From Gymnopus androsaceus JB14 (Eukaryota; Basidiomycota; Agaricomycetes; Agaricales; Omphalotaceae), in assembly GCA_009733575.1 (NCBI GenBank), contig ML769556.1:1-64000 (forward strand): 64,000 bases of DNA. The letters are read 5' to 3'. The notes under the pieces were generated by a model. That model was not told the DNA's origin, searched no databases, and worked only from the letters and a program-made list of their open reading frames with translations. Below are positions 5,501 to 60,669 of the stretch, in pieces. Both the position numbers and the translations under genes were made by a program. Each line of letters opens with the position of its first letter. Position 1 is the first letter of the stretch.

Positions 5501-8031
5501 GATATCCCGCCCCATTTTCCTCATATCCGTTTGTTGGCTCCAGTCCATCGTCGGCGGTCGCACAAGGATAGCAAGATTGACGAGGTCCTGGATGCAAGTG
5601 AGAACAAGTTGTACACCGCAAAGATTGCACCATTTCTTACCTCAGCCTGCTCTAGAAGAGGCGTCGCAGTCATTAACACCTTCACCAGACACATCTCGAA
5701 AGCGGCGCAGACACTCCGCCAAAGCGCCTTTCCAGTCCTACATTCGTGTGCCTCGTCAACATGTATACTACCCCAGGAGAAGGAGTACAAGGTATGCCCG
5801 GGTTGCGTGTACTTGAGGCGGGGCATCCCATTTACATCCTTCTCAACGATCTTGGGCTCATTAAGGCGCAGCATGCGTTGTATAGCCTATAAAGTGGTTC
5901 AGTAAGATGACGGCTAAAAACTTTAGCCGTTTAGTTGTGCACTCACTGAGTGTGAGACCACCACGATGCGGCGGTTCGGTGGCATTTGAGATTTCCGAAT
6001 CCGATCCATGTCACTTGCCCACTTCGACGATGCGTTGTGAACAACCACGACATCCACCGCGTCATACCGAAAAAAACGGCGGATTTCTGACTTCCACTGA
6101 TCTACAAGGCTGTTGGGAACTACCACCAAATGCGGCGAGTCAGGAATCCCGTCATTGCGGGAGCCAAACGTAGGATCTGTACCGCCCAGTCAGTAACAGA
6201 TAAAAACTCTATCCGCGCATGTTGCTTACTGCGGAAACATCGTGGCAGAGACTCTCGACTCTCAACTCCCGATTCTTTCCACTTTTCCTGGATTGCGTAT
6301 AAAGACTGCAAAGTACCGATTGCAGCCATTGCACACATTGTTTTCCCCAATCCGACACCGTCAAATAGACACGTCCCTGGCACTTGACTCCATTTCTCCA
6401 CAAGAGCCGTGACAGAAGCAGGCGGAGTTCCGGAATGATGGATTTCCTCGAGATCTGCTTTCCCAGTGTTCCCGAGTTGCATGAACAGAGCCGCCACACA
6501 CGTTAGCTGATGCCATGCGATCTCCACAGGAGTACTGCCAGTAAACGGTTCTTCACCATTGGAATCCAAGGGAATGTCTGCGGGATCATCACATGTGTAG
6601 CGGCGGAAAACAGCCGGAACACCATTCTTGAACCCTAAGTATTCCACAAGCTCCATCCTGTCGTATTGTTGAAAGGCGCCTACTCCGATGTCTTGTCCTT
6701 CCGCCAGATAATCGTTTAGTACCGATTCCCACTCAGGGTTGGTGTAAATTGACAGAGCAGGCCCAAGTCCATCTCCATCCGTTCGTCCTACCCAAGTGTC
6801 CGCAAATTCAGCAAGCTCAATGTTAAAGTCTGTCAGATCTGCCCTTGTTGGCATTGGGAATCCATCTAACTGCTGCAGTGGAAGAGCTTCGGCAAGGCGT
6901 TTACCCATATCGACTGATGTAATGAGCACAGTTCATGTTGAAACTCAACGGCCGCAACTCACAAATTCGTTCATCTGTCTCACCACCCATATCGATCCCC
7001 GCCATCTTCCCAGTTTTGGATTGAACAACTCCCGCTAAGAAACCCGCTGCCATCTGGCAATACTCCAGTTTTTGCGCGTGCGGAGTCAGCTTCTCCCACC
7101 GGGCCATGATTGCCTTAGCGGCCCCTTCGTCCTTCAAGTCCACTTCAATTGCCATAACTTTAACGTCATTGGGCGAGCGGATTTGCCAGAGCAACGATTC
7201 ACGGAGGTTACTCAATTTAGTGAGCGCCGCTTTAGCTTTGCGGATTGTCAAGCCATGCGGAAGCTCCAAGGACGGAATTTTGACACCGATAGCATCCTCG
7301 GCGGCTTTAAGGTTTTGTTCGAGCTTGGTTGCCGCCCTTATCCGGTACTTTGAATGGGCATTGAGAATCGGCTGTATGGTAGCGTGCCACCATTCCACCG
7401 CTTGGTCGACAGGCAGACCCATATCGTCGAGTGCAGCGGCTCCGATGATTTTGGGGAGCAGAGTCTCGAGCTTTGTGTCCCACGATTTTGCTGATACGAA
7501 TCCTTTGACTTTCTGCGGGTCATTCTGATCGACATATTTGCTGAAATTCACCGGGTTAGTGTAGATCTCGCGAATGCCAAGAGATTGGCCATTGAGCTGG
7601 TCGACGATCTATGGGTACACATTACATTTGGACTCATAGGAACTCAAGCTACTCAGACGCACCGATTTATCAAAACAGCTGGCCCAGTCCTTTGATCGCG
7701 CCACCTGCAAAACGGCGGAGAGACCATTTGCCACCCAGTTGAATTTATCCACTTCTACTTTTCCGCTTATCTCTGACAAAGCTGTCAACTCCGACCTGAT
7801 CTTTGCCCAGTTTTCACCCCACTCGGCTTGATACTCAGGGGGACAGGCTTCATTCCAGAATGACACGACCCCAGCACGCTCAAAAGCTTTTAACAATGGA
7901 GTCTTTTCAACCATCTCGTCCTCTCCGGCATAAACCGTGGAGGTCTCAGTTAACTCGAGATGGGAGAAGGTTAACCGGAAGATATGAGATAATTTTTGAG
8001 ATGTAGTTGCATCCCTGTTCGTCGCAGGCAT
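2598..8031 (-). CDS. SNF2-family DEAH helicase/ATPase, intact, 11 exons
   Basis: Exons (minus strand) are 8031-7663, 7608-6963, 6913-6230, 6176-5947, 5886-5641, 5587-5168, 5083-4769, 4715-4542, 4487-4304, 4249-2754 and 2696-2598. All ten introns are GT-AG, 49-84 bp and in phase, giving 1620 residues with no stop. Motif I is DGVGLGKT (about residue 522), the Ia region VVPNSLVDQW follows, motif II is VDEAH (about 687), motif III MTATP (about 714), motif V SSVGQIGLNL (about 1008) and motif VI QIKGRIHRRGQ (about 1044). These are the SNF2_N and Helicase_C modules of a dsDNA translocase. Residues 1-500 are unfamiliar. Residues 1090-1620 are low complexity, with a basic KKRGKKRGR nuclear-signal-like stretch and a basic tail. 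Role inferred: chromatin or DNA remodelling in the nucleus; the substrate is unknown. Motif VI carries RRGQ where most SNF2 enzymes have RIGQ. Intron 4 contains the CGGCTAAA palindrome. Confidence 0.93.
5911..5929. repeat. CGGCTAAA/TTTAGCCG palindrome in SNF2 intron 4
   Basis: CGGCTAAAAACTTTAGCCG can fold as an 8-bp stem with a 3-base loop. It lies in the 60-bp intron 5887-5946. The same palindrome recurs upstream of the gene at 9262, 9439 and 9604. Confidence 0.7.
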
Positions 8032-12948: not shown

Positions 12949-13799
12949 TCTTATGAGTGCTTATTTATTCAAAAAATGTTGGGAATCAGGCTTGATAAAT
13001 CCTTAAAAAATCATCAAAGATCATCAAAATATTTTGGCATTGTTGTTCCGCCCCCCTGGTGCATATGGGCACATATGGGTGCTCATTTTAACACAGAACA
13101 TTGGGAATTGAGCTTGATAAATTCTGGAAAAATCACGAAAAATAGTGAAAATATTTGGGCATTGTTATCCCGCCCACCACCTCTTTTGGGTGTGTATTTT
13201 CCTGCCAAATAACAGGGATTGAGCTTGATAAATCTCGGGAAAATCATAAAAAATCATGAAAATATTTAGGGATTGTTTTCCCACCTCCCACTGATTATGG
13301 CACCTCATGCCCGAATAAGGTCATGTAACACATGTGACACTGTCACACTACATATGCAGCATACCTTAACCGTAACTCTCTTCTGGAATTCATCCTCATT
13401 GCAATCAAAAGTTTAATTTGTAGTTTTTGTGACAGTGTCACATGCAGGCTGATGGGATCAGCAGAGGTAGGTTGCTGGGTGTAGATGAGAAAGTCATCAC
13501 TGTAACTATCAATTGCTATTTCACAAATTTCAATTTGTACTGTGTGACAGTGTCATGTGACTATTACTATACTTCGCATGCACTACTATATTTACTTGTA
13601 CATGGAATCCATACACTACTATTTTTACTAGTGCATGGAATCCATATCCAAAGGGTGCCAGAGGTCCTAGCCATATGGATTCCAGACAGGGCGTATGGAT
13701 TCCAGGGCCCTGGATTTCCTGTGGATTTTGATCATATTAGTTACTGGATTGTTACACTTTGGACTATCTAACTAGTTACTTTTCCTGGTAGACTGGAAT
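12949..13799 (-). mobile_element. Satellite-carrying TIR element, truncated copy (copy I)
   Basis: This is an inverted counterpart of 40863-41950. From right to left it has the terminus ending GACTGGAAT at 13799, the shared block GTTACACTTTGGACTATCTA, a few satellite units, a segment with three TGTGACACTGTCACA-type palindromes, and three ~120-bp 'head' repeats (GCTTGATAAAT...AAATATTT). The other terminus is missing; the mariner-like element abuts it. It is inserted in the Ty3 reverse transcriptase frame, next to NWPTPT. It lacks the 80-bp hairpin seen in copy II, so it shows the empty site. Confidence 0.78.
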
Positions 13800-14853
13800 G
13801 ACAGGTTGGAGTTGGCCAATTCTTTACAACTTCAACTTTTTTAGGGTCTATTGATATGCCATCTGGTGAAACTATAAGTCCAAGATATTCCACTGTGGTA
13901 GTGTGGAATTCGCATTTTTCGGGTTTCACATGTAGATCATGGCTTTCCAATCTTTTTAGGACACTCTTGACATGTACTGTATGTTCTTCCTCATTGTTGG
14001 AGAAAATCAAGATGTCATCCAGGTAAACAATTACAAAATTGTCAACCATATCATGAAACACGTTGTTCATGAAATACTGGAAATTTGACGGTGCATTGGT
14101 TAGGCCAAAAGGCATAACCAGATATTAGTAAGATCCATAACGTGTTCGAAAAGTGGTTTTCCATTTGTGTCCCTTGGCTATCCGGACATTGTTGTATCCT
14201 GCACACTAGTCAAGTTTGGTATAAACTTTGGCCTTGCGTAATTGGTCTATTAGATTTCCAATCAAAGGTAATGGATACCGATTCTTTTTTGTGAGCTTGT
14301 TTAATGCTCAATAGTCCACACAGAGTCATAAGCTTCCATCTTTCTTTTTTGCAAACAGTACAGGTGCCCCAATAGGTGATGCTGATGCTTGTATGAAGCC
14401 CTTATCAAGCATATCATCTAGGTATTCCTTCAAAGCTTTTAACTCCAGTTCTGACACGTTATGCAGCTTCCCAAAAGGTGGAAGCTTTTCATCCTCTGTG
14501 TCCACCCTTAAGTCATATGAGCGGTGTTGTGGAAGTGTTTTAGCTTCAGCAGCTGCAAAAGTTTTTGCAAAATCATGGTACTGTTTCGGAACATGTTTAT
14601 CCAACATGCTCTGATCAATTGAACCAGTTGTGTTTGGCATTTTTGGTAGAGTAAACCTCTTTTCAATTTCAGGTGGCCTTGGTTCTAATTCCTTTTCGGC
14701 ATTTTCTGCCCTAAGGTTTTCCTCATGTTCAAATTCTTCACACTCTCTGATGCCTCCTTGCAGTGTTATGTGCAATGTGAAGATTTCACAGCCTGCTTTT
14801 GCTAACCTTGCAAACGCTGGTGCACCTACTAGATCAATTCGAGGTCCGCCCAC
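13800..14853 (-). pseudogene. Ty3/gypsy reverse transcriptase, decayed and interrupted
   Basis: Two open pieces (14853-14326 and 14115-13800) joined by a broken stretch give the RT order: PIGAPVLFAKKKDGSL, then VDY-stop-[27 protein letters not shown], the catalytic VYLDDILIFS (about 14020), CEFHTTTVEYLG and NWPTPT. Stops inside include TGA at 14308-14310 where the family has Arg, and TAA near 14128. Copy I of the satellite element enters directly after NWPTPT, so RNase H and integrase are absent; I did not find them to the left. Confidence 0.85.
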
Positions 14854-38913: not shown

Positions 38914-41220
38914 ATGGTGAATACTCGCTACATGCAGCAAATATCCAATGCGAATAAAGCCAAAACCCGCGGAGGAAAAGCTAGAGCTAAAGCTGATCCT
39001 CCTGATGTTGGTAATGGAATCCGTTGTGATTCCGGTTGTTCGCGGTGTCAAAAATACGTCCTCAGGACGCTATCGATGTTCCGCCTGCTGCGCCAACGTC
39101 GACTTTGGTAAACGACGACATTCGGAGAGAGGGCTTGGGCTCTTCTCAAACGATACTTCGAAGACGACAAGGAGGTGCCCGCGGGTAAAGTCGATGAATT
39201 CCTCAACAAGATCGACAATTCCATCGAGGCGCAGTTGCGTCCGGTTTTTGGGAGAATCATGGGTCTGGAACCTGGAGAACCGGAGACACAGAGGGCTCTT
39301 GGTGATGAAATCGACGCAGCAATCGCAGAGCTCCCCCCTGTCGACGCTCCCCAGGTTAAAAAGGCTGCGAAAGGAAAGGCACGCGGTAAGATCGACTCTT
39401 AATAAGTTGTGAAATAATATTTACATTTCGCAAAGGCAAAGGACGCAAAACGACCTTTAAGCCCTCTTTTCACCAAGAGGATTCCGCTTCACGCCCTCCG
39501 TCCAACGTTCCGTCAAATCTAGCCCCTCACGCGCAATCTTTCTTTCCTCCTGAATCGCCTCCCCGTACTCCTACCAAGCCAGACACTCCCGAAGCTGATC
39601 CTCCTAGCATCAGGACGGGAATTTGGGACGCAGAGCTACGCCAGGAGATGTCTATGGCCTCCGCTATGGACGCTGGCACAGCGCAAGCTGTTGATGAAAG
39701 GATGTCGGAATACCTCGAGGCGCTGGAGACATCGACGGTGTCCCAGGAGACTAGGAAAGCGCTTACCCTAGAAACGAAGAAAGCGTTTCTATCTCGGTTC
39801 GCTGCAATCACTCGGGAGGAGGTGGTTCCTGACACACCGGAAAGCCTTGTACGTTTGTTCAAGGATTTGTCGCTACCTTTGGGTGGCAAAGAACCATCCC
39901 CCAGTCCCATCCGTCAGCCATATCGAACCGGCGGGCTTGCATCTTCGAGCGTTCCACCTTCCTCTCCGTGCCCATCCGCAGGATACAAAGTCGCATCAGG
40001 TTGGAGTACATTGGGGGACGTGGAGGAGGAGGAGGAGGAAGACGAAGAGCATCAGGAGGAGGAGGAAGACGAAGAGCAGGAGGAGGAGGAGGAGACGAAG
40101 AGCAGGAGGAGGAGGAGATGAAGAGCTGGATGAGCTGGAGCAGGAGCAGGAGCAGGAGGAAGATGAAGAGCAGGATGAGCAGGAGCAGGAGCAGGTAGAA
40201 CTTGAAGCCGACCATCTCCATCGTTGAGTGGACGAGTCTCGTGAGGGACTGAACGAAACGCATCCCACTCCATCTCGACCACCTACTCTCCCCGACAAAC
40301 CCAACCAGGAGATGGATAGGATCGCGAAAGCGAGAATGGCACGACAAAACAAGCTCTTGGAGCTTGCCGGCAAGAAAGTACCTGCACCTCTTCCCTCCCA
40401 AAAATCTCGGGCTTCTGCGACGGCGCCTACTGGGTCGAGGAAAGCAGCTAATCCCCGAGAGAAATCACCTCGTCCTGCACCTCCCGCTAACGGGAATCCT
40501 CGAGATAAATCACGCAGTAAGACGACCAAAGTTGTTGCCGTTCCAACTACTCGACCTCCGCAGAACGCCCGTGCTCTTCCAAAGAAGAAAGTGCCTGCCC
40601 CTGTTGTAACTAACTCCAATAACAACGACAATGATGATGAAGAGGGGGAAGAGGGGGATTCGAAGAATAAGGGTGGACGTTTGTCAAGGTCGGCGATTGC
40701 TCAAGCACAAGGCATTCGTCAAAAGTATTATGACGACCTACAAGCCTTGGCGGACAAAGAAGGCAAGACATTCGCTGCAATTCTGTCAGCTGTAGGAGAT
40801 ACCTGTTAAGCCCGTGTGGCCCAGATCGATCGCGAATCAATCGTGGGAATCGATCGATGACCATTCCAGTCTACCAGGAAAAGTAACTAGTTAGATAGTC
40901 CAAAGTGTAACAATCCAGTAACTAATATGATCAAAATCCACAGGAAATCCAGGGGCCCCGCCTGGAATCCATACACCCCACCTGGATTCCATGCATGTCG
41001 CATGGAATCCATGCACTAGTAAAAATAGTAATGTATGGATTCCAGGCATGTTGCATGGAATCCATGCACTGGTAAAAATAGTAGTGTATGGATTCCAGGC
41101 ATGTTGCATGGATTCCATGCACTAGGAAAAAATAGTAGTGTATGGATTCCAGGCATGTTGCATGGAATCCATGCACTAGTAAAAATAGTAGTGTATGGAT
41201 TCCATGCACTAGTAAATATA

Positions 41221-41300
41221 CTCGCTATGACGTAAAGTAACTGGATTTTTTTGGCCGGCAAAACCGCTATAAAATTCCGGTTACTTTACGACATAGCGAG
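41221..41300. mobile_element. 80-bp hairpin mini-element flanked by TA
   Basis: Starts CTCGCTATGACGTAAAGTAA and ends TTACTTTACGACATAGCGAG, with TA on both sides. Copies I (about 13585) and III (about 52830) of the host element lack it and have a single TA, so the insertion and its duplication can be read directly. Confidence 0.85.
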
Positions 41301-41960
41301 TAGTAGTGCATGCGAAGTATAGTAATAGTCACGTGACACTGTCACACAGTACAAATTGAAATTTGTGAAATAGCGATTGATAGTTACAGTGATGACTTTC
41401 TCATCTACACCCAGCAACCTACCTCTGCTGATCCCATCAGCCTGCATGTGACACTGTCACACAAACTACAAATTACACTTTTGATTGCAATGAGGATGAA
41501 TTCCAGAAGGAGAGTTACAGTTAAGGTATACCATATATGTAGTGTGACACTGTCACATGTGTTACATGACCTTATTCGGACATGAGGTGCCATAATCAGT
41601 GGGAGGTGGAAAAACAATCCCTAAATATTTTCATGATTTTTTATCATTTTTCCGAGATTTATCAAGCTCCATTCCCGTTATTTGGCAGGAAAATACACCC
41701 CCAAAAGTGCTGGTGGGCGGGATAACAATGCCCAAATATTTTCACTATTTTCACGATTTTTCCAGAATTTATCAAGCTCAATTTCCAATGTTCTGCAGTA
41801 AAATGAGCACCCATATGTGCCCATATACACTGGCGGGGAACAATAATGCCGAAATATTTTGATAATCTTTGATGATTTTTGAAGGATTTATCAAGCCTGA
41901 TTCCCAACATTTTTTGGATAAATAAGCGCCCATAAGCACCGGGAGGGTGGGCATAAGGTC

Positions 41961-42772
41961 ATACTAGTAAGGAAGCTAATGGTTGTACTGGTACTAATAA
42001 GTCGTACTAGTAACTAACCTAATGGTGGTACTAGTACTGATAACTCGGACTAGTAACTAATCTAATGGTGGTACTAGTAAATAACTCGGACTAGTAACTA
42101 ATCTAATGGTTGAACTAGTACTAATAAGTTGTACTAGTAATGAATCTAATACTTATAATGGTACTAATAACTCGAACTAGTAACTAACCTAATGGTGGTA
42201 CTAGTACGAATAACTCGGACTAGTAACTAATCTAATGGTTGTACTAGTACTAATAACTCGGACTAGTAACTAGACTAATGGTTGAACTAGTACTAATAAG
42301 TTGTACTAGTAATGAATCTAATGCTTATAATGGTACTAATAACTCGAACTAGTAACTAACCTAATGGTGGTACTAGTATGAATAACTCGGACTAGTAACT
42401 AATCTAATGGTTGTACTAGTACCAATAAGTCATACTAGTAACTACCTAATGGTTGTACTAGTACAAATAACTCGGACTAGTAACTAATCTAATGGTGGTA
42501 CTAGTACTAATAAGTTGTACTAGTAACGAATCTAATGCTTATAATGGTACTAATAACTCGAACTAGTAACTAACCTAATGGTGGTACTAGTACGAATAAC
42601 TCGTACTAGTAACAAATCTAATGGTTGTACTAGTACCAATAAGTCATACTAGTAACTAACCTAATGGTTGTACTAGTACTAATAACTCGAACTAGTAACT
42701 AACCTAATGGTGGTACTAGTACTGATAACTTGGACTAGTAACTAATCTAATGGTCGAACTAGTACTAATGTG
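41961..42772. repeat. ACTAGT-rich satellite array, ~44-bp unit
   Basis: About 18 units built from GTACTAGTACTAATAACTCG, GACTAGTAACTAATCTAATG and close variants, some arranged as higher-order pairs. Interior array of copy II. Confidence 0.9.
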
Positions 42773-43560
42773 ACATGCATGGAATCCATGCACTACTATT
42801 TTTACTAGTGCATGGAATCCATGCAACATGCCTGGAATCCATACACTACTATTTTTACTAGTGCATGGATTCCATGCAACATGCCTGGAATCCATACACT
42901 ACTATTTTTACCAGTGCATGGATTCCATGCAACATGCCTGGAATCCATACACTACTATTTTTACCAGTGCATGGATTCCATGCAACATGCCTGGAATCCA
43001 TACACTACTATTTTTACCAGTGCATGGATTCCATGCAACATGCCTGGAATCCATACACTACTATTTTTACCAGTGCATGGATTCCATGCAACATGCCTGG
43101 AATCCATATGCTACTATTTTTACTAGTGCATGGATTCCATGCAACATGCCTGGAATCCATACACTACTATTTTTACCAGTGCATGGATTCCATGCAACAT
43201 GCCTGGAATCCATACACTACTATTTTTACCAGTGCATGGATTCCATGCAACATGCCTGGAATCCATACACTACTATTTTCACCAGTGCATTGCATGGAAT
43301 CCATACACTACTATTTTTACTAGTGCATGGATTCCATGCGACATGCCTGGAATCCATACACTACTATTTTTTCTAGTGCATGGATTCCATGCAACATGCC
43401 TGGAATCCATACACCACTATTTTTACTAGTGCATGGAATCCATACACTACTATTTTTACTAGTGCATGGATTCCATGCAACATGCCTGGAATCCATACAC
43501 TACTATTTCCTAGGGCATGGAATCCATGCGACATGCATGGAATCCAGGCAGGGTGTATGG
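42773..43560. repeat. 53-bp satellite array, about 14 units
   Basis: Each unit has GCATGGATTCCATGCAACAT, GCCTGGAATCCATACACTAC and a TATTTTTACCAGT tail. All three forward frames are open across much of the array because 53 is not divisible by three and no frame of the unit holds a stop. The protein-like frames are therefore a by-product of the repeat. Confidence 0.9.
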
Positions 43561-45904
43561 ATTCCAGGCGGGGCCCCTGGATTTCCTGTGGATTTTGATC
43601 ATATTAGTTACTGGATTGTTACACTTTGGACTATCTAAGAAGATATAAATTGGGGCAGCCTGAAGTGCGATGACCTGGGTTGGACCTTTGAAGTAATGGG
43701 ACTTGGCGAAGCTATTAGCAACACCCTTAACACACTGTAATGTGTCCCAGAGGAAAGGAGTGGAAGAAGGACGGAGCGGAGCGAACGCACAGCCGCAAGT
43801 CGATCGCAAATTGATCGCAATGTTGATTGATTGATCGGCGGAGATTTCGGAAATAAGAATAGAGAAGATCAGCTAGGCTAAGTTGATTTTCGAACTAAAG
43901 TTACAATACATGGTATACTACTTAAATACTAGTCAGTTTGGATAAACGGATAAATGTAAAGAACAATAAGTAATATATATCTGGGAGTGTATTCAGTAAG
44001 TATAACAATAAAGTAATTCAGTAAGAAAGACAAAAGAATATAAGAGGCATAAAACAATAAGTATCGGAAAGTGTGTCCAAACATGATAGGGATGTTTCCA
44101 AAGGTAAAGGGCAGCTATCAGATCGATATGTCAATCGATCGATGGCGATTGATCGGAAATCGGCGGCAAGTGTCGAACATCGGCAGCGAGTGTCGGACGT
44201 CGGCAACGAGCGGTGATGATTGTATGAATAAATCAGTAGTCAATGTGTTGATACATTGATAAGTTGATTAATCAATGACAAGTGATCGGAAATTGATTGG
44301 CAAGTGTCGGAAGTGATCGGTGATGATGGCATGGATATAGATAGCATGGATATAACAATACTGTCTCGGATACCAGAGCGCTGAATCCTTGGAATGCATT
44401 CCAGGCGTATGCGATGCATCCCGACGGACTGGGAATGACAAAGGGCCAGGACAAGTCAACAGCCGATTTGAAGAAAAGGATTCAAGCAGCCTATCATAAG
44501 AAGTGCAACGGGGTGGACAATGTTGAAGAGGAATTCTCGGAGATTCTGGAGTGGTATTTGACTACAATTGCCAGCCAAACAGCTCAGAAACGTTTGGAGG
44601 GTCTTTCCGAGAAGCAGCTAGTTAAGATTGCGGGACCTTTCAACAATCGCGTAAGTTTCAATGTTCTCTTACTGCAGGCTCATTTAACTGATCAACGCAT
44701 TATCCGTTTATAGGGTTGCCAAGTCTGGGAGACTTATCAAGTCTCGTGTTTTGGGTAGATAGTTGATGGAGTTTCTGCGCGAGCAGTCGCTTTTGGATCA
44801 GATCCTTACTACCTTGGTATGAAGGAAGATAACCCATTGCAGATGAGGGATCAATGTGTTGACTATGGCACAATGATACACGCGCAGCTTATGCGCAAGA
44901 AGCAAGGCGCATTGCTTGATCCGCGCAAGCAGAAAATTATCAACAAGTACTTGGAGGATAAGACCAATAAGGTCACTTTACGCACTCCAGTTAAAGACAT
45001 ATGGATCCATGATTTACGTGAGTAGTCTTGTTCAGTTGTACTTGCTCCCCCTCACTGATGGTTTATATGGATTTCAGAGACGTTGTGCCCCAACAGCAAC
45101 ATTACACAGATGAAATGGGGGTCCGCCTTCGCGGATATGTGCTACCGGGAGAAAATCAAACTGGTCAACTATCCCCGGGGACTAAAAGCAATTGGTGCAC
45201 CTGGTGGTCTTCAAGCAGTCTCAGGGATCGAAAAAAATTATCTGAAGACAATCGTGGGTGATCGAGTTCAGTTTTGGCAACAGGAAGCTAGAGAGACGAG
45301 GCGGGAAGCAGTAGAGAATGAGGACAAGGGTATGGCACCTTTATATGATGACGACAGTGACAAGGGGAGTACGAGCAAATGTACGGTGTTGCTTGAAGAG
45401 GATCTCATTTGATTTGTCCCGTGGGATGAAAGTCAGTCAATTTGTTTAGGTTCTTGCTTGGTTAACAGTACTAATCTCGCTTCGTTGATTTAGATGAGAA
45501 AGCTCTAAGTGTGGCAGATAGAGCCAACTCTGGGATCGTTACGGAGCAGCCGAGGGGCAATGAAGAACCTCTGGTGCTGACAAAAGTCCTTTATTCTAAA
45601 AAGTATGTCGAATACGCGAGAGCAGAAGCACCAAGACAGTTGGTAGAGAGGATTCAGACAAGGAAGACAGTGACTCGCAATCGGATGCACCTCATGGAGT
45701 CTCGCAAGACAAAGGTGGGCAAGAGCATTGCAGTTTGTCGGGAGCGAGTGCAGGAGGGAGAGTCCTCAGACGAGGAAGACAGTGACTCGGAATTGGATGC
45801 GCCTCGTGAGTCTCGCAAGATGCAAGGTGGGCAGGAGCATTGCAGTTCGATTCGGGAGCGAGTGCAGGAGGAGAGAGGTCCGAGTTTCTGACACTTCTGT
45901 TGCT

Positions 45905-48087: not shown

Positions 48088-48770
48088 TTGTCAATCGTGG
48101 CAACAGAACTCAATTAGTATACACAGACTTCTTCAACCCCAAACATATCACACATAGAGGCCTCCACATGTCTGTTGGAGTTGTCTCCTGTGCCAATCTT
48201 GCACTAGATTCATCAATCCAATACCTCCTAGAGTATTTCTACACATACCTCATTCCTGGTCTTTATGAAATGGACTACAATGAACTGGACCATTATCTTC
48301 AACCTGTCTTAGAGAAGTTTGTCAAAGCATGGCAACATGGTATGAGGTTATCCTGCACTGCCAATTCCAAATCAAGGGTGATAGTTGAAGCAGGGATCTT
48401 TCTCTCTGTAAATGATCTACCTGCTGCTCAAAAGGCTGCTGGTTTTATGGGAACAATGACAAACTTCATCTGCACAATATGCAACTTGCATGGAACACAT
48501 CATATCTTCAGCTGTGATCACAAAAATTGGCCTTGTTGAGACGTTACAGAACTACGCCACTGGTCGGAAACCTACAGAGATACTTGGACACACTCCAAGT
48601 GCACCACCATTGTCAAGAACCATGGTGTTCAATGGTCATCCTTTTGGCTATTGGAGTATTGGGATCCTACCTGGATGCTTGTGATTGATGTATGCACTGT
48701 ATCCTGGAGGGTGTTGTACATTATCACTTGTTGCACAGCATATAAGCTAGGAGGTGCAGTGACTAGCACT
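48088..48770 (+). pseudogene. Plavaka/Tnp2-type (CACTA) transposase fragment
   Basis: The frame reads TDFFNPKHITHRG, HMSVGVVSCANLALDSSIQY, LIPGLYEMDYNELDHYLQPV, SVNDLPAAQKAAGFMG, FICTICNLHGTHH and DHKNWPC. A TGA (48537-48539) follows where Arg is expected, then DVTELRHW and VQWSSFWLLEYWDPT. After a one-base shift near 48690 it reads MHCILEGVVHYHLLH. This order matches the central part of Plavaka-type transposases of basidiomycetes; N- and C-terminal parts are absent. The 3' end abuts the copia LTR. Confidence 0.82.
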
Positions 48771-49045
48771 CACGAAGTGTTTAAGCTTGTAGAGCAGATA
48801 GAGAGAGGTAAAAGACTAGTAGAAGTCATTATCATTAGCAGTACTACTGGAGTCCTTATATACTGTAGTACTGTATTCGTTACATATATGGTAGTATCCT
48901 TCTAGTATGTTCTATGTGCATGACCTATGATGTTGTCCATAAAGCTACTTACTAAGATACTACTGAGGCTGAGTAAGACTACCTTGGCAATGACTGATAG
49001 TGTCATATGACCAAGATGATGAGTGATATCATCATACGTTCAACA
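48755..49045 (-). repeat. Ty1/copia 3' LTR
   Basis: On the minus strand it starts TGTTGAACGTATGATG directly after a polypurine tract (GCGAGGGGGAG) and ends CTAGTCACTGCA, about 291 bp. A TATATAAGG box lies inside. The right border is firm and the left border is inferred from the TG...CA rule. Confidence 0.65.
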
Positions 49046-52000
49046 CTCCCCCTCGCTGAGGTCGTGGAGGTAGAATTCCTCATGTGCTTAAGAAAGCACG
49101 TGAATCTCACCTGAGATCCAGTCTCTTGCAAACTTTATTCAAAGTCAGCAACATATTCAATGCCAAGTTGATCTCGGCAACGTTTGAATTTAACCCAAGC
49201 AAGATTCTTAGTTAAAAGATCCACGACATTCTGATCCATCGGAATATAGTAAGGGATCACAAGTCCTGACTTGGTAGTTTCCCTGATGTGGTGATATTGG
49301 ACATCAATATGTTCGGTCCGACGATCTTGAGCCTGATTATTGGCCATAAAGATTGAACCCATGTTATCACCGAGAAGTGGGAATCCAATTTCCCCAAGTA
49401 AATTGAGGATCCCCCTGATTTGTCTACAACAGTCACTTAAAGCCATATATTCAGCTTCGGTGGAAGATAAAGCAACTGTCTTCTGGAGATACGAAGTCCA
49501 GGACACAATTCCCTTGGCTAGTTTGAGAATATATCCAGTTTGGGATCGACATCTATCAGGATCTGATGCATGATCAGAATCCGAGTTTGCATAGAAGCCT
49601 TCTCCAGAGTTCCCATCATGGACAAGAAAATATTCGGCAGTACCTATAAGATAGCGAATAATATAATAAGCCTTGTTCAGATGATCCTGAGAAGGATTTG
49701 CTGAATATTGTGACATTTTTGCCACATGGTAGGCTATGTCTGCTCTTGTTCCAAGCAACAGATATAATAAGGAGCCAATCACTTGTTGGTACTCCTGGCG
49801 TCTTTTAGGATGCACAGGACCATCATATTTAGAAGGCTGATATCCTGCCGGTAGTGGAGTTCATGCTACTTTGGCGTTTATTAATTTAAAGTGCTTTATA
49901 ATCTTTTTAAGATATTCTGACTGATCTAAGGTCAAACACTGCTTAGATCTGTCACGCCGAATGCGCATGCTTAAGAGCTCCTGTGCTGCGCCCAAGTAGC
50001 AGCACTCCCAACGTTGCATAAATTCGCACTTCTTGCGCATGACAAGTTCTTTGTCATTTCCCATGAACAATGCATCATCAATATAGATGATTGCAATTAC
50101 GGTCTTATTGTTTTCTTTGTAAACATATACACCGGCATCTGAAGCGCAATGTTTGAAGCCTAGATCCTGGGTCATTGACTTTGTACAAGCGCAGCACCAG
50201 GACAAACCAGCTTGCTTCAGGCCATAAAGAGATCGGCGTAATCTCCAAACCTTGCTGCTATCCTTGATGCAGCCTTCAGGTTGTTCCATATAGATCTCCT
50301 CATCTAATTTGTCATATAGAAAGGCAGTTTTTACGTCCAGCGCCTCTAGTTCCCAATCTTCTAGGGCAGCTAGTGCAAGTAAGACTCGCACTGTTTCATA
50401 ACGGACAACAGGAGAGAACAATTTGTCACAATCCACTCCTTCTACTTGAGAATATGCTCTGGCAACAAGTCCAGATTGTTTCCGACCATCTGACTTGATA
50501 TCAAAGACCCATCTGTTCTTTATTACATTTCTGTTATTGGGTCAATCAACAATTTCGAATACCTTTCGCTTAACTAGACTGTCAATTTCTTCTTTGCATT
50601 TGTCAAGCCACGGTTGCCGGTCCTTTACAGGAAGGCGCATCAAATCACGGAACTGCCAGTTTCAAACCGTTTCCTTATTTTCAGGAGCCTGAGAAAGCAA
50701 ATAGTCCAGAAAAGCTACTCTCCCTTCATGAGCCAACTGGGAAATATAATCAACATTTCCGCGTCCATTCATACTTTGTCCTGAATAATTGTTCACAGGT
50801 GGGTCAGAAACGGGATTATTTGCTCTAGGCTGTTGTCAAGCAGGTTGCCTTTGCCGGGAAGGTCTGGCTTCAGGTTGATCACCGTAAATCTGACGATTCC
50901 CTGAACCAATATTACGAGATCAACCAGCATTTCGATCAATCTCGGCAGGAGGTGTATCACCATAAATATTTCCAGGTCTCTGGGTAGGTACTCATGCTCT
51001 TTCAGAGCATCTTACGATTGGTGCTGGTTCAGGTTCCATCACAGGATTGAATGGATTTAGAGGTGGTTGTCAAGCACCAGCTCCCCCTTGATCTGCACCA
51101 TGTTGATCAGGTACTTCTCCGCCGCTTCTCACTTCCTCGTCTCCTTCTCCATTTTCTTCATCATTTTGTGGATCTATCGGAGCAGGAGGATTAGGCGGAG
51201 GAGGAAACTCAGGGTCATCATCCTCAACATTATCATCAGGAGCGGACCTGGATGGTTCAGAATCCTCTTCAAAATCATTATCGTTAATGTCAACTGTAGG
51301 TTTTGATGTTGAGCAGTGTGGAAACCAGCACTCATCAAATATGGCATTGGAAGAAGTCGCAATTGAATTATTATGTGTGCGCATGAGTCAATAAGCATTC
51401 ATCTCTTGTGTATATCCAATAAAAATCATTACTTCTGATCTTGGAGCTTGCTTGTTTGGGCGAGTCTCCTATGGACAATACACATATGCGACACATCCGA
51501 AAGTCCGAAATTTGGACACATTGGGTTTCTTCCCGTATCTGATTTCGTAAGGTGTTTTCCAATTTCTATTTTAATCCCATTGGCGGTGCATAGGTGTCCT
51601 GTTATAGACAACATATGCAGTTTGAACACTAAATTCCCACCAGGAAGGTGGTAAGCAGGCCATGTGCCTCATGGCTTCTGATTTCTCATGGATTGTACAG
51701 TTGAATCTTTCGATTCTCCCGTTCTGCTGGTGTTCATAAGGAGTCAATGGTCCCAATATGATCCCTTTATCATGGCAAAATTATCTGAAATCCTTAGTGA
51801 CAAATTTGTTAACAACTCTTATTTGTTTTATTTTGATAGGGTCTTGGAGGTCCACAAGATTGTAGAATTCCTTGAACGCTTCCAATATGTCAGATTTGGC
51901 AGCTAGGAGGTATCCTGTGCCATATGATGAATGATCATCAAGGATATTCAGTACATATTTATGCTTATGATATGAAATAGTGAGAAACTCTATAATGTCC

Positions 52001-52655
52001 ATACAGACTAAATCAAAGAGTTTTTCAGCACGTTTCTCACTTTTGGGATAAGTGCGCTGGGTCATTTTACCTTTAGCGCAACCAGGACACATTTCTTTGT
52101 CCTCATTGGGATATTTACTTTAGGAAAACCACCTGTTACCTCAGACGCATGTCGTAAAACATCTTTAGAAGGATGTCCAAGGCGATGATGCCATATATCA
52201 TAGTCAATAGTTTTATGAGCAATCAGATTTTTAGGAATTCTGATGTTTTTGGGAATAAAATCCTTGAAAAGGTCAATCTTGCTCTTTATTACTGCGGTTT
52301 TTAACCAATGTAGAGCATCTGACGAGTTCATGGGGTAATACGTCATGAAGACCTTATGATTGCTCTTAAACCTAAGTGAAAATTTCTTCTCATCAGCATA
52401 GGCATAATAGCCATGGCGCAAGATGCTGCCTTGTGAGAGAAGACGATATGGTGAATGTGGTTGGTAAAATACTGGTTCCAATTTGGTAATTTGGGTGACA
52501 TTATTTTCATTTGTATGTTTGATGAGAACAACTCCAGCATGCGTAATATAAGTCTTTGACTGCTTATCAGCAGTCTGGATTTCAATTGGTTTTTCTAATT
52601 GTTTTAATTCTGTGAAATCCGACTTACATGGCGTGGTATGTATTGATGCACCTGA
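49046..52655 (-). pseudogene. Ty1/copia gag-pol, 5' truncated by an insertion
   Basis: Reading leftward: protease start SGASIHTTPCKSDF at 52655, gag-pre-integrase IWHHRLGHPSKDVLRH (about 52190), integrase with CPGCAKGKM and DDHSSYG (52090-51900), Pro-rich linker, RT with LDVKTAFLYDKL, QPEGCIKD and YIDDALFMGN (about 50080), and RNase H with SSTEAEYMALSDC (about 49450) and KSGLVIPYYI. All the usual copia domains are present in order. Many in-frame stops are TGA at expected Arg positions (for example 49861-49863, 50542-50544). The frame starts exactly at the border of satellite element copy III, which cuts the D-SGAS active site. Confidence 0.88.
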
Positions 52656-53193
52656 CACTTCAGGCTGCCCCATTTTATATCTTCTTAGATAGTCCAAAGT
52701 GTAACAATCCAGTAACTAATATGATCAAAATCCACAGGAAATCCAGGGCCCTGGAATCCATACGCCCTGCCTGGAATCCATATGGCTAGGACCTCTGGCA
52801 CCCTTTGGGTATGGATTCCATGCGCTAGTAAATATAGTAGTGCATGGATTCCATGCACTACAAAATTTAGTAGTGTATGGATTCCATGCATGTCGCATGG
52901 AATCCATGCGCTAGTAAAAATAGTAGTGCATGGAATCCATGCACTAGTAAAAATAGTGGTGTATGGATTCCATGCACTAGTAAAAATAGTAGTGTATGGA
53001 ATCCATGCACTAGTAAAAATAGTAGTGTATGGAATCCATGCACTAGTAAAAAAATAGTAGTGTATGGAATCCATGCACTAGTAAAAATAGTAGTGTATGG
53101 AATCCATGCACTAGTAAAAATAGTAGTGTATGGATATCCATGCACTAGTAAAAATAGTAAGAATAGTAGTGTATGGATATCCATGCACTAGTA
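52656..53193. mobile_element. Satellite-carrying TIR element, copy III, up to the gap
   Basis: Begins CACTTCAGGCTGCCCC, the inverted right end of copy II, then the block GATAGTCCAAAGTGTAAC. A satellite of ~30-bp units (GTATGGAATCCATGCACTAG plus TAAAAATAGTA) runs from 52745 into the gap. Sequence after the gap (53832-53890) is a degenerate form of the same satellite. The far terminus is not visible. Confidence 0.85.
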
Positions 53194-53831
53194 NNNNNNN
53201 NNNNNNNNNNNNNNNNNNNNNNNNNNNNNNNNNNNNNNNNNNNNNNNNNNNNNNNNNNNNNNNNNNNNNNNNNNNNNNNNNNNNNNNNNNNNNNNNNNNN
53301 NNNNNNNNNNNNNNNNNNNNNNNNNNNNNNNNNNNNNNNNNNNNNNNNNNNNNNNNNNNNNNNNNNNNNNNNNNNNNNNNNNNNNNNNNNNNNNNNNNNN
53401 NNNNNNNNNNNNNNNNNNNNNNNNNNNNNNNNNNNNNNNNNNNNNNNNNNNNNNNNNNNNNNNNNNNNNNNNNNNNNNNNNNNNNNNNNNNNNNNNNNNN
53501 NNNNNNNNNNNNNNNNNNNNNNNNNNNNNNNNNNNNNNNNNNNNNNNNNNNNNNNNNNNNNNNNNNNNNNNNNNNNNNNNNNNNNNNNNNNNNNNNNNNN
53601 NNNNNNNNNNNNNNNNNNNNNNNNNNNNNNNNNNNNNNNNNNNNNNNNNNNNNNNNNNNNNNNNNNNNNNNNNNNNNNNNNNNNNNNNNNNNNNNNNNNN
53701 NNNNNNNNNNNNNNNNNNNNNNNNNNNNNNNNNNNNNNNNNNNNNNNNNNNNNNNNNNNNNNNNNNNNNNNNNNNNNNNNNNNNNNNNNNNNNNNNNNNN
53801 NNNNNNNNNNNNNNNNNNNNNNNNNNNNNNN
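53194..53831. other. Assembly gap (638 N)
   Basis: A run of N inside the satellite of copy III, most likely a collapse of the tandem array. Confidence 0.99.
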
Positions 53832-54176
53832 AAAGAGAGAGATAACCCATGGATTTCATGCACTACGGAATATTGGAGTTTATGGAATCCACGAACTACA
53901 AAATCTCAAAGACATTACAATCTTCTCATGTCTACAAATTATCATATTGTAATATTTACACTACAGACAATTGTCTACAACATAAATTATATGATGATGT
54001 AATATATCTATCCCTTTCTATCTAAGCCTTAGTCCAAGAAATTGATTCCCTATATAAGTCACATACAACATATATGAAATTCAGTACATGCAGGTGAGTC
54101 CAAGAAAGATACACATAGATAAGTCCAAGATCAACAATTCCAGGTCATTGCAAGGAAATATAAGCTCTCAAACATC
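53832..54176. other. Post-gap spacer
   Basis: The first ~60 bp are a degraded satellite (ATGGATTTCATGCACTAC). The rest is AT-rich, with no gene seen. Confidence 0.5.
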
Positions 54177-55700
54177 ATGCTTGGGCTTCTAAATCAATCC
54201 ATTTCTGGCTCAACCCAATCAGCTACCTCTAAAGCATCCAGACACTCCAGCAGTCCAGGGTCTAGCATATCCATGTCTGACTCCTCGGATGAAGTTAATT
54301 CATCATCACTGTCCTGCTCCTCAATTGGCTCATCTTCTGCTCTCCATAACTCACTACCACCGAGGTCTCGCTCCATTGCATCCAGTTCTTCCACTGGAGG
54401 AGCCCATTGTGGCAACCGCACATCATCTGGCATATCCCACATTGCTCTTTGCCAGCGGACACACAGTCATGTAAGGTCCACCTTGCGCCCATTGAAATGA
54501 TAAAGCAAAACAGCATCACCTAGATTTCCATACAATAAGTTAAGGAGATCACAACTTTTGATTATCACAAACCTAGCTTAATAACTTCTTCAATAGCCCG
54601 CTGAAGCACACTCCACTCCTCCTCCATCCATTCAAATAAGGAACGACGTTCTCTTCGCAAGCGTTGCAACTCCTCATCACACCGATCACGCTCAAGTATT
54701 GCTTTGATACCCTTTCGTACCTTATCATTGCATAACCACTCAGGCGGAGCCCCTGTGTCTGTGGTATCATCCAGTCCTACATCCTGCCATATTGCATCAT
54801 CTACATCCAGTCTAAACAGTTCTTTCAAAGGTATAGGCTCGGGGGCAACTGCATTCCTAGGTGCCCACTGCCTTCCAATGAGGACACGCATTTTCTCACA
54901 CATTGAATTGTATTCTTTCGTTAGCTTGCTGATACCGGGCTCACGATGTTTCACCGAGTCCTCAGTGTGCCCTTGTATCTTACGTTCTGTTTAGTTATGC
55001 AAATGATTAATAGGTAATGTACAGAAAATGTTAAACATACCATTGTACTGTTGACGATGGACTGCACGCTCTACACAATCCCATTCGAATTTGCGGGCTC
55101 TCAACCTGTCTCATAGACGGATTTTCTTGGCCCGCGCGTTCATACGCAAGGTAATAAACTCATTGGAAGCCAGATGTTGGTATGTGTTCATCTGGTCTAC
55201 ACCCAGTGCCCTCTCCATGTGCAGAAGAGACCGTTTGTTGTACTTGAGCTCCTTCGTAAGACCTGGCAGCTTCTCCTGGGCCTCGGTCATTAGGTAGGGC
55301 GGCTCATTCAAGTCACACACTACCACTTCGAGACAGGCGATGCGGGTTTCTAGGGTGCCAATGACAGTGCACATTTGGATTGCTTCCTCGATTGCCTTCT
55401 TTCCAGCGTTCTTCGATTGACCTGAAGCAACATCAATTAATTAGAACCTTGGTAACACAAAAAGATCCTCACGAGGCAATGGTTTGGTTTGTGCAGCAAC
55501 CTGCTCCGACCACTGCGTGTGCAGCAAATCAGGAGATCGTTCCGATTTTACAACCTCTCGATTTACCTCTTCACGTTTTGTCTGAGCCAGCCGCCATTTA
55601 CGTGCCACCCATTTGCCCAGACCTCTCAAGCTTTCTTTATTGCCATGTTGAATCTGGCGATCCAATGTATACAGTCTCTGGTAATGCTAAAAAGATAAAG
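54177..55700 (-). pseudogene. KDZ transposase, C-terminal region
   Basis: Minus strand. First exon from about 55690: HYQRLYTLDRQIQHGNKESL, GLGKWVARKW, LHTQWSEQVAAQTKPLPR. Then a coiled-coil exon (55374-55111). Next KHREPGISKLTKEYN, GRQWAPRNAVAPEPIPLKEL, DVDDAIWQDVGLDD, NDKVRKGIKAILERDRCDEE and EWMEEEWSVLQRA (54950-54570). The last part is VDLT-stop-LCVRWQRAM and an acidic end (54500-54194). This is the recognisable tail of KDZ (Kyakuja-Dileera-Zisupton) transposases. The RNase H-fold catalytic core is not in the window. TGA at 54467-54469 replaces an expected Arg. The first exon abuts the Ty3 zinc-knuckle fragment, so a rearrangement joined them. Confidence 0.85.
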
Positions 55701-55891
55701 CAAATGAGCAATGTTTCGCAGCTTGCCTGATAATGGCCCTGGCCCCCACATTGTAGGCAGAGGTTTTACGCCCTCCGACGATTCATTTCTGCCTGCTCTT
55801 GCGGGGTCCAGGGTACCCTCGCTGCTCTAAGCGAAACTCCTGTAAAGTCCCCCCCATCGTGACAAGCACAAACATGTCACTAGATGTAGCT
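55700..55891 (-). pseudogene. Ty3/gypsy gag zinc-knuckle fragment
   Basis: The minus frame reads PWTPQEQAEMNRRRA, a stop, then LCLQCGGQGHYQASC, a CX2CX4HX4C knuckle. It is the downstream part of the gag that continues at 60670 on the other side of the satellite element. Confidence 0.7.
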
Positions 55892-57066: not shown

Positions 57067-58114
57067 TATATATTAGCCCACTGCTTATGGGTGCTTATTT
57101 TCCGAAAAAATGGATTATTGGGTCCCATACATCCCCAAAAAATCACCAAACATGCTAAAAATATTCAGGGGACAGGGTCAGGTGCACTGGCACATGATTT
57201 ATATATGTATATACATTGCTGGACGCTTATTGGCGCTTATTTTCCGAAAAAAATAGATTATTGGATCCCACAAATCCCCCAAAAAATCATGAAAATACTA
57301 AAAATATTCAGGGGTAGGGTCAGGTGCACTGGCACATGATTTATATATGTATATACATTGCTAGACGCCTATGAGCGCTTATTTTCTGGAGAAAGTTGCT
57401 TATTGGATCCCATGAATCCCCACAAAATCATGAGAAATACTGAGAATATTCAGGGGGTGGGATTAGGTGCAATAGCACATGATTTGTATATGTATATAAA
57501 ATACTAAAAATATTCAGGAAGTTGGGTCAGGTGCACTGGCACTTGATTTATGTATGTATATAGATTTTTGGGTGCTAATGGGCACTTATTTTCCAAAAAA
57601 AAGTCAATCATTGGGTTTTATAAATCCCCAAGAAATTGTGAAAAATGCAAAAAATATCCAGGGGTGAGGTCAGGTGCACTGGCAAATGATTCATATATAT
57701 ATATATTTATATATTGTTGGCCACTTATGCATGCTCATTTTACAAAAATAAAATACCTATTGGGTCCTGTAAATCCCCAAAAAATCATGAAAAATGCAAA
57801 AAATACATTCAGGGGGTGAGGTTAGGTGCACTAGCATATGATTTATATAAGGATAGAAAATACTAAAAATATTCAGGGAGTGGGGTCAGGTGCACTGGCA
57901 CATGATTTATGTATGTATATATATTGCTGGGTGCTTATAGGTGCTTATGTTCCAAGAACAAAAAGTCAATTATTGAGTTTCATAAATCTCCAAGAAATTT
58001 AAAAAAATACCAAAAATATCCAGGGGTGGGGTTAGGTGCACTAGCACTTAATTTATCTATTATTGGCTCCTTAAGGGAGCTTAGTTTGCAAAAGAGGTGC
58101 ACATATCTGCCCAC

Positions 58115-59280
58115 TGGCCCTGACTAGTAACTCTGAGTTACTTAGTAATGACTACTAGTAGCTCCAGGTCACTTACCAGTAATTAGTACTATCAACTCTG
58201 AGTTACTTACTAGTAATGAGTACTAGTAGCTCCGGGTTACTTACTAGTAATTAGTAATAGTAACTCCGAGTTACTTACTAGTAATGAGTACTAGTAGCTC
58301 CAGGTCACTTACTAGTGATTAGTACTAGTAACTCCGGGTTACTTACCAGTAATGAGTCCTAGTAACTCCGGGTTACTTACTAGTAATTAGTACTATCAAC
58401 TCCGAGTTACTTACTAGTAATCAGTACTAGTAGCTCTGGGTCACTTACTAGTAATTAGTACTAGTTACTCTCAGTTGCTTACTAGTAATTAGTGCTATCA
58501 ACTCCGAGTTATTTACTAGTAATTAGTACTAACTCTCAGTTGCTTACTAGTAATTAGTGCTATCAACTCCGAGTTATTTACTAGTAATTAGTACTAACTC
58601 TCAGTTGCTTACTAGTAATTAGTGCTATCAACTCCGAGTTATTTACTAGTAATTAGTACTAACTCTCAGTTGCTTACTAGTAATGAGTACTAGTACCTCC
58701 GAGTTGCTTACTCGTAATTAGTGCTAACTAGTAGCTCCAGGTTACTTACTAATAATTAGTACTAGTAAATCCGAATTGCTTAATAGTAATTAGTGCTAGC
58801 TAGTAGCTCCAGGTTACTTACTAGTAATTAGTACTAGTAAATCCGAGTTGCTTAATAGTAATTAGTGCTAACTAGTAGCTCCAGGTTACTTACTAGTAAT
58901 TAGTACTAGTAACTCCGAGTTGCATACTAATAATTAGTGCTAACTAGTAGCTCCAGGTTACTTACTAGTAATTAGTACTAGTAACTCCGAGTTGCATACT
59001 AGTAATTAGTGCTAACTAGTAGCTCTGGGTTACTTACTAGTAATTAGTAGTACTAGTAACTCTCAGTTGCTTACTAGTAATTAGTACTAGTAACTCCGAG
59101 TTGCTTACTAGTAATTAGTGCTATCAACTCCAAGTTACTTGCTAGTAGCTCCAGGTTACTTACTAGTACACTAGTAACTTCAACTTGCTTACTAGTAATT
59201 AGTGCTATCAAATCTGAGTTACTTACTAGCAAGTAGTACTAGTAACTCCAAATTACTTAGTAGTAACTAGTACTAGTTGA
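58115..59280. repeat. ACTAGTAA satellite array in copy IV
   Basis: Dozens of units of roughly 34-45 bp built from TTACTAGTAATTAGTACTAG and AACTCCGAGTTACT, with higher-order blocks (for example three near-identical ~79-bp blocks at 58490-58670). The reverse complement resembles the ACTAGT array of copy II. Confidence 0.88.
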
Positions 59281-59590
59281 TATGTTTGGCCTAGGGTGAA
59301 AGTGGGTCAATGCTGGCATGTAGTGGTTACTCATGCAGCGCCAGATGGAGTCTTTGCATAAATAATGACAGTAATTTGATTTGAATGATGCTCTTGAATA
59401 AAAATGACTTTGAAAATATTCATTTTTGAGGACGTCAAATTTTGAAAGACTCTGGATTGAGCAAGTAAAGTGTGATTCCTGAGGGCATTTTCAACCCAAG
59501 TAAGGAAATCTTGGTATCAGTCAGGTGACAATATAGGGCACTACCACTTTGTTTTTCTACTGAGCGTGGGAATTTTTTTACTAATCACTT
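59281..59590. other. Unique spacer between array and right arm of copy IV
   Basis: About 300 bp of non-repetitive AT-rich sequence with no ORF. It is the only unique part of the element apart from the nested insertion. Confidence 0.55.
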
Positions 59591-60669
59591 GTTCTATATA
59601 TACATATATATAAATCATGTGCTAGTGCACGTAACCCCACCCTCTGAGTATTCTTCGCATTTTTCACAATTTTTTGGGGATTTATGGGCCCAATAACTGA
59701 CTTTTCTTTGGAAAATTAGTGCCCATTAGTACCCAACAATATATACATATATAAATCATGTGCCAGTGCACCCAACCCCACTCTCTGAATATTTTTAGTA
59801 CTTTATAAATAGATCATGTGCTAGTGCACCTGACCCCACCCCTGAATATTTTTAGCAGTTTTCATGATTTTTCGGGATTTATGGGACCCAATAATTGACC
59901 TTTTTTTCGGAAAATTAGCGCCCATAAGTGTCCAGCATATATATACATATACAAATCATGTACCAGTGCACCTGACCCCACCCCTGAATATTTTTGGTAT
60001 TTTTCGTGATTTTTTGAGGATTTATGGGATCCAATAAGTGACTTTTTTGGAAAATAAGCGCCCATAAGCGTCCAGCAATGTATATACATGTATAAATCAT
60101 GTGCCAGTGCACCTGACCCCGCCCCCGAATATTTTTAGCATTTTTAGTGATTTTTTGGGGATTTATGGGACCCAATAATCCATTTTTCGGAAAATAAGCG
60201 CCCATAAGTGTCCAGCAATGTATATACATATATAAATCATGTGCCAGTGCACCTGACCCCGCCCCCTGAATATTTTTAGCGTTTTTAGTGATTTTTTGGG
60301 GATTTGTGGGACCCAATAATCCTTTTTTTCGGAAAATAAGCGCCCATAAGCAGTGGCCCAGTGGGTGGGCATACGTGCAAACTAAGCGCCCGGCCCGCCA
60401 CTTTCATTAAGCATTAATGATAACGCCAAATATTTGGCAAAGACATAGAAGCTAATAAATATGCCAGATATTTGGCAAAAGAATCAGATAGGCGCTGGGG
60501 GAAGGGGAAGATCAAGAACACCTATTTTGCCGACTTGCCGACATCACAGCTGGGCCGGCCAGAATCTTCACCAAATATTTTCCCATTGCATTTTTATCAA
60601 GGGCAAATTCTTATTGTAATATTTTGCAAAACGCTCTACAATAACTATCGGGATATTTAGCATTAGGCT

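Follow-up and report, generated by a model that had tools for sequence, protein, structure and literature searches.

We investigated a repeat-filled element in the first 64,000 nucleotides of contig ML769556.1 of Gymnopus androsaceus JB14 (C174:1-64000; this whole stretch is called the window), together with its relatives in the searched genome of 83.27 Mb and 934 contigs. The element occupies 2806 bp at 40862-43667 and is flanked by a 7-bp target duplication, CGATGAC. It probably represents a family of recently active non-autonomous cut-and-paste DNA transposons, moved by the Kyakuja-Dileera-Zisupton (KDZ) transposase of its relatives. The link to KDZ comes from a common order of gene and repeats, found again and again in KDZ copies of 98%, 91% and 88% identity.

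Ends, target duplications and genome-wide copies

A preliminary description of the window had placed a 2805-bp unit at 40863..43667 between 8-bp duplications. A mobile unit is present there, but its first base is 40862. Identical flanks, CGATGACC, do stand at both 40855-40862 and 43668-43675; the duplication itself has 7 bp, the eighth base, C, being the element's own first base, matched by chance after the right copy. The window copy was compared with 20 loci chosen, not at random, from the best end matches with facing ends (21 elements, 786-4628 bp). A flush 7-bp duplication was observed in 18 of them and one of 5, 6, 8, 9 or 10 bp in none, while the shifted 8-bp reading is possible in just 8 of the 18. 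The termini are CATTCCAG..CTGAAGTG (CA..TG) in 20 of the 21 copies and CCTTCCAG in the remaining one. When left and right flanks were paired across copies, all seven bases agreed in 2 of 462 pairings, both of them one duplicated locus against itself. Inconsistent ends or duplications were thus looked for in the sequenced copies and not found, and the earlier proposal of a non-autonomous DNA transposon is borne out. Of the enzymes named with it, hAT or KDZ/Zisupton, the KDZ link is retained below; a 7-bp duplication speaks against canonical hAT and Zisupton, which were rejected on the lack of flush 8-bp duplications and on the 8 of 18 copies that the shifted reading fits.

A whole-genome search with 26-nt patterns of both ends, allowing at most 3 mismatches, gave 80 left and 165 right ends. 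The reversed control patterns gave 0 and 0 matches, so that the end matches are not due to chance. Positions were listed for all 80 left ends and for 100 of the 165 right ends, and 45 of the left ends face a listed right end at most 20 kb away. Between copies, the median number of differences is 1 in the first 95 bases and 2 in the last 95 (gaps ignored), and so few differences suggest that the family spread recently. The ends are also shared, as first described, with two other loci of the window, one left-type at 13800 on the minus strand and one right-type at 52656 on the plus strand, besides many places in the genome. No partner end for the 12950-13800 copy was found within the window; its neighbour is a putative Gypsy-like element. 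At locus L035 (C121) a second left end with the same flank as the first was excluded as a duplicate. A 1247-bp direct duplication (931-2170 and 5759-7001, 99.1% identical, with a 25-N gap between) spans left end and flank there, and maybe represents two haplotypes scaffolded in a row.

Inverted arms, tandem arrays and palindromes

The interior consists mostly of tandem repeats, as had been noted, Tandem Repeats Finder (TRF) labelling 65% of the element as such. Each end has its own outermost 29 bp, and the adjoining 110 bp form an inverted repeat of 98% identity. Where the preliminary description had one 53-bp array, two are confirmed (40983-41208 and 42773-43546). Its ACTAGT array of about 44 bp exists with a unit of 43 bp, two of its three palindromes are exact and the third lacks the first base, and its head repeats of about 120 bp correspond to imperfect core repeats whose period in related copies is 110-111 bp. 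In the core, a small hairpin, CTCGCTATG...CATAGCGAG, lies between TA dinucleotides at 41221-41300, and the alignment with the 12950-13588 copy starts only past it; the hairpin is perhaps a nested miniature inverted-repeat transposable element.

The same plan is found across the family. Copies carry oppositely oriented 53-bp arrays flanking a palindrome-bearing core, the arrays having about 4 to 30 units and a length that is very variable between copies. The 43-bp array was detected by TRF in 15 of the 21 elements, and is absent from the TRF rows printed for the other six (L023, L033, L034, L035, L036 and L040); L033, L036 and L040 present 79-82% inverted self-alignment. Inverted self-alignments (at least 75%) cover 18-93% per element among the 21, and 46% in the window copy, so that the long inverted, internally repetitive flanks of a foldback element are present. 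Fifteen of the 21 elements contain exact TGTGACA..TGTCACA palindromes, 2-4 apiece, and palindrome pairs number 50 in all, compared to a mean of 0.08 in 50 base shuffles, the elements being related and not 50 independent cases. One 53-nt unit is predicted to fold as two hairpins (z -6.4).

Within the sequenced elements, KDZ open reading frames (ORFs) gave no match by tblastn, matches being confined to the flanks; no Pfam scan of the interiors was made. Those ORFs of the elements that reach 170 aa or more are read-throughs of repeats, except part of one in L032. As no KDZ transposase was found in the element itself, only a non-autonomous membership is possible for it.

The description of the element as a vehicle that seeds satellites is not supported. 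The 43-bp array gave 142 matches, from which 40 places were picked (40 scored among 134 candidates). Of these, 35 are situated at most 8 kb inward from a listed end, unlike the other 5; the listed ends with 8 kb inward account for no more than 1.7% of the genome. The 43-bp array is mostly tied to elements; some seeding of satellites outside them is possible, 65 right ends being unlisted.

KDZ-coding relatives and competing explanations

Inward of the right-type end at 52656 lies a 33/53-bp array (52809-53193). On the far side of an assembly gap (53194-53831) a partial KDZ gene extends from 53843 to 55713, where homology to the C368 copy ends. The part at 54568-55440 encodes the KDZ C-terminal part, with a protein 93-97% identical to the C368 and C538 ORFs, and this coding stretch sits 1.9 kb inside the end, gap counted. 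The retroelement interrupted at 52656, which from its ORFs we take to be Copia, is uninterrupted around 52655 in its C696 copy, the one other copy compared, and thus provides an empty site. The C696 copy matches the window as far as CACCTGA and no further; therefore, the end at 52656 is exact.

Considering that the genome contains at least 161 matches to PF18758, proximity to KDZ genes alone is weak evidence, and a common order of gene and repeats is stronger. The C538 KDZ ORF exhibits PF18758 (E 4.8e-54) together with CxC1 (1.1e-9), and the closest named relatives of the protein are from Lentinula and Marasmius. On C368 and C538 the family's array adjoins the KDZ C-terminal side without N runs (361 bp of C538 unread). 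Beside its gene the C341 KDZ copy (91%) bears palindromes and a diverged 53-bp repeat in 23.2 units, the stretch read stopping short of an end. In the C169 copy (88%) the gene is followed by short tandem repeats, then by GTGACA palindromes, the inverted-repeat arm (83% over 139) and finally a CACTTCAGG end. Since the 91% and 88% copies carry related repeats beside the gene, the 53-bp-type array seems integral to the KDZ lineage, and the satellites seem to have been inherited with the transposon and not to be chance passengers. On C538 the 5' side runs on into a divergent 300-aa open frame without Pfam match, which means that a complete element may be longer. The check proposed at the outset, for a coding element sharing these ends, thus succeeded on one side, with KDZ sequence inside the end at 52656 and on C169, but not for both ends together.

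These features are best explained by a mechanism in which relatives encoding the KDZ transposase have the same end and a satellite-bearing flank. The transposase would recognise the CA..TG ends (CATTCCAG / CACTTCAG) plus the adjoining inverted repeat of about 110 bp, and would insert the element via a 7-bp staggered cut. The gene-less copies would have arisen by internal deletion or rearrangement, preserving the ends, the inverted 53-bp arrays and, mostly, the GTGACA palindromes and a 43-bp array, and a change of array length from copy to copy would yield a foldback-like satellite package.

Several observations weigh against mobilisation by KDZ. The window KDZ copy is without the N-terminal part, its link between array and gene spans the assembly gap, and a search for the partner junction of the 52656 copy gave 0 matches with up to 3 mismatches allowed. 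On C169 the tandem repeats are diverged (TRF periods 19, 33 and 142, with no 53-bp period), the KDZ match holds 2 in-frame stops, and homology 5' of the gene seems, by eye, to end near 142.26 kb, by a UTP7-like host gene with a BING4CT domain. The product of this host gene is 94% identical to a Gymnopus androsaceus protein over 99% of the query, and Lentinula proteins among the matches listed reach 76-93%, the host being an agaric close to both genera. The C538 array stops without a terminus, and a right end 1.3 kb further points away. The gene-side array of C368 is fused to an inverted partial copy. A right end abuts the KDZ 5' region on C368, the only one of seven places with that region where this is so; it is probably a deletion junction, because the other six match 1-224 of 330 only and do not run into the end. 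No left-type end was seen on a KDZ-coding copy, and none of the coding copies found, which are broken, rearranged or partly read, combined both ends with a duplication. Three of the 21 elements lack a perfect duplication, with 6 of 7 bases matching in L023 and L040 and none in L024, and the 8.6-kb copy L042 gave no KDZ match by tblastn.

That copy (C87:88373-96987), with right-type ends on both sides, a 7-bp repeat TACTCTA and several kb of non-satellite DNA, was rejected as an autonomous copy. The same holds for L041 (C545:21456-29288, duplication TTGAGAT), a 7.8-kb satellite copy with a retroelement inside, presumably a Copia retrotransposon. On C368 the KDZ N-terminal region is present at 44001-45685 and 48697-50379 as inverted repeats of 99.4% identity that flank gene and array, a recent inverted duplication. 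A telomere-like CCCTAACCCTTAACCC stands at the junction of KDZ 3' side and array in L074 (~2597-2614, C368) and L075 (1-60, C538), and a GGTTAGGGT run is also present in L041 (7407-7433).

It is unlikely that another superfamily with 7-bp duplications, P/Galileo-like or hAT7-like, mobilises the element and that it was merely inserted beside common KDZ genes. Such duplications are described, in the parts of the sources used here, for Galileo, along with long, internally repetitive terminal inverted repeats (TIRs) (PMC4168063), and for hAT7 of rusts (PMC12730594); KDZ matches are plentiful, and two copies, L033 and the C152 copy seen in L050, adjoin diverged KDZ genes. This explanation is opposed by the recurrence of the gene-repeats order at three levels of KDZ identity and by the 18 duplications, which, in base counts and by eye, show no GTANTAC-like target preference. 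The P superfamily was the first hypothesis, from the 7 bp, the CA ends and the foldback shape, and was not retained; the genome showed 0 matches to PF21787 and PF21789, domains of P-type transposases, a result that is uninformative since the controls were equally silent, and hAT transposases were not searched for.

We consider it still less probable that array and end are a nested insertion in one ancestral KDZ copy, later multiplied, the ends belonging to a different, riding transposon. Array and end were indeed seen on just one side of the KDZ sequence in the window and on C169, and the 5'-side end on C368 resembles a deletion junction; the repeats of C341 and C169 have, however, diverged along with their genes, and 7 bp with CA..TG fit a KDZ lineage. 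Ordinary segmental duplication or recombination-driven satellite spread without transposition, to which the varying array lengths and the C121 duplication of left end and flank might point, is hardly credible against sharp common ends in differing flanks, flush 7-bp duplications in 18 of 21 copies and an exact empty site at 52655.

Table 1. Coordinates in the window of the element, its parts and its relatives.
Feature	Position	Strand	Basis or remark
Whole non-autonomous element, 2806 bp, CATTCCAG...CTGAAGTG	40862..43667	+	Same termini in 20 other copies (one with CCTTCCAG)
Target-site duplication, left copy, CGATGAC	40855..40861	.	Sequence read
Target-site duplication, right copy, CGATGAC	43668..43674	.	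Sequence read
Left terminus, 29 bp specific to left ends	40862..40890	+	Genome search with ends
Right terminus, 29 bp specific to right ends; reads inward as CACTTCAGGCTGCCCC	43639..43667	-	Genome search with ends
Inverted-repeat arm common to both ends, left copy	40891..41000	+	98% to 43529-43638
Inverted-repeat arm common to both ends, right copy	43529..43638	-	Genome search with ends
Left 53-bp array, 4.2 units	40983..41208	+	Inverted relative to right array, 96% over 226 bp
Core: TGTGACAcTGTCACA palindromes, exact at 41447 and 41543 and near-exact at ~41332; imperfect repeats	41209..41961	+	
43-bp ACTAGT array, 18.9 units	41962..42769	+	
Right 53-bp array, degenerate end included	42773..43546	-	
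Truncated copy, left end at 13800 and core (12950-13588)	12950..13800	-	Sequence alignment
Right-type end and 33/53-bp array of KDZ-coding relative	52656..53193	+	Inserted in retroelement
KDZ transposase gene, C-terminal part	53843..55713	-	97.8% nucleotide identity to C368 copy, 1873 columns

The window contains a second satellite-bearing element at 57079-60355, with CACTGCTTATGGG inverted ends, a possible 3-bp duplication, GCC, and inverted repeats of about 142 bp flanking a 34-bp ACTAGT array. Its CACTG ends and the 3 bp suggest a non-autonomous element of CACTA/EnSpm type.

Relation to known transposons and origin of the satellites

The closest likeness is with Kyakuja, a KDZ group of Agaricomycotina (e.g. 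Kyakuja-1_LB), which has 7-bp duplications, CA..TG termini, a KDZ transposase and agaric hosts in common with the present family; the duplications and termini are given for two Laccaria families (PMC12730594, in part). One more point stands against the KDZ assignment here: in those portions of the source Kyakuja is reported without TIRs, whereas the present family has strong subterminal inverted repeats, with 110-bp arms 98% identical, and tandem arrays, and the words 'satellite' and 'subterminal' have 0 occurrences in the main text of that source. Since inverted repeats are present, we call the family, which is probably KDZ-mobilised, only 'Kyakuja-like'. KDZ1-3 of Cryptococcus neoformans, another basidiomycete, also have a KDZ and CxC1 transposase, but are described, in the sections used, with TIRs of 139-241 bp, duplications of 8 bp (KDZ1) or 4-8 bp (KDZ2, KDZ3) and coding elements of about 9-11 kb (PMC12810828).

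In architecture the family resembles two Drosophila-type systems, and we assign it to neither. Tetris of Drosophila virilis is likewise non-autonomous and foldback-like, with inverted flanks holding variable numbers of tandem repeats; it differs in its animal host and its 8-10 bp duplications, and no coding partner is named in the portions consulted (PMC4079207). Satellite arrays outside the element are demonstrated there, whereas here the 43-bp array is mostly tied to elements. In Galileo, of the P superfamily, the majority of copies show 7-bp duplications, the long TIRs can hold tandem repeats and many copies are transposase-less, but there is also, according to the same portions of its source, a P-type transposase and a GTATTAC target consensus (PMC4168063); here KDZ sequence is present and no such consensus was seen. 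Both kinds of element are already known, and a Tetris/Galileo-like architecture on a KDZ transposon would be the new part. No title on a satellite-bearing KDZ element was found in the literature on Kyakuja, Zisupton and fungal satellites, foldbacks or minisatellites, as covered by titles and abstract openings of the entries listed, with subscription papers mostly outside.

The results give a KDZ-linked family its ends and its 7-bp duplications, and would add a fungal KDZ-type transposon to the Drosophila elements that have a foldback/satellite architecture. The origin of satellites is an old question, and here KDZ-coding relatives, gene-less copies and arrays share one genome, so that the way in which a transposon flank becomes a dispersed satellite may be traced copy by copy. 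More tentatively, the 53-bp units, with their predicted hairpins, and the GTGACA palindromes might be arrayed transposase-binding sites that diverged with the transposase, and hence a functional part of the KDZ lineage. If so, this lineage would build a new satellite at each divergence and spread it via its non-autonomous copies.

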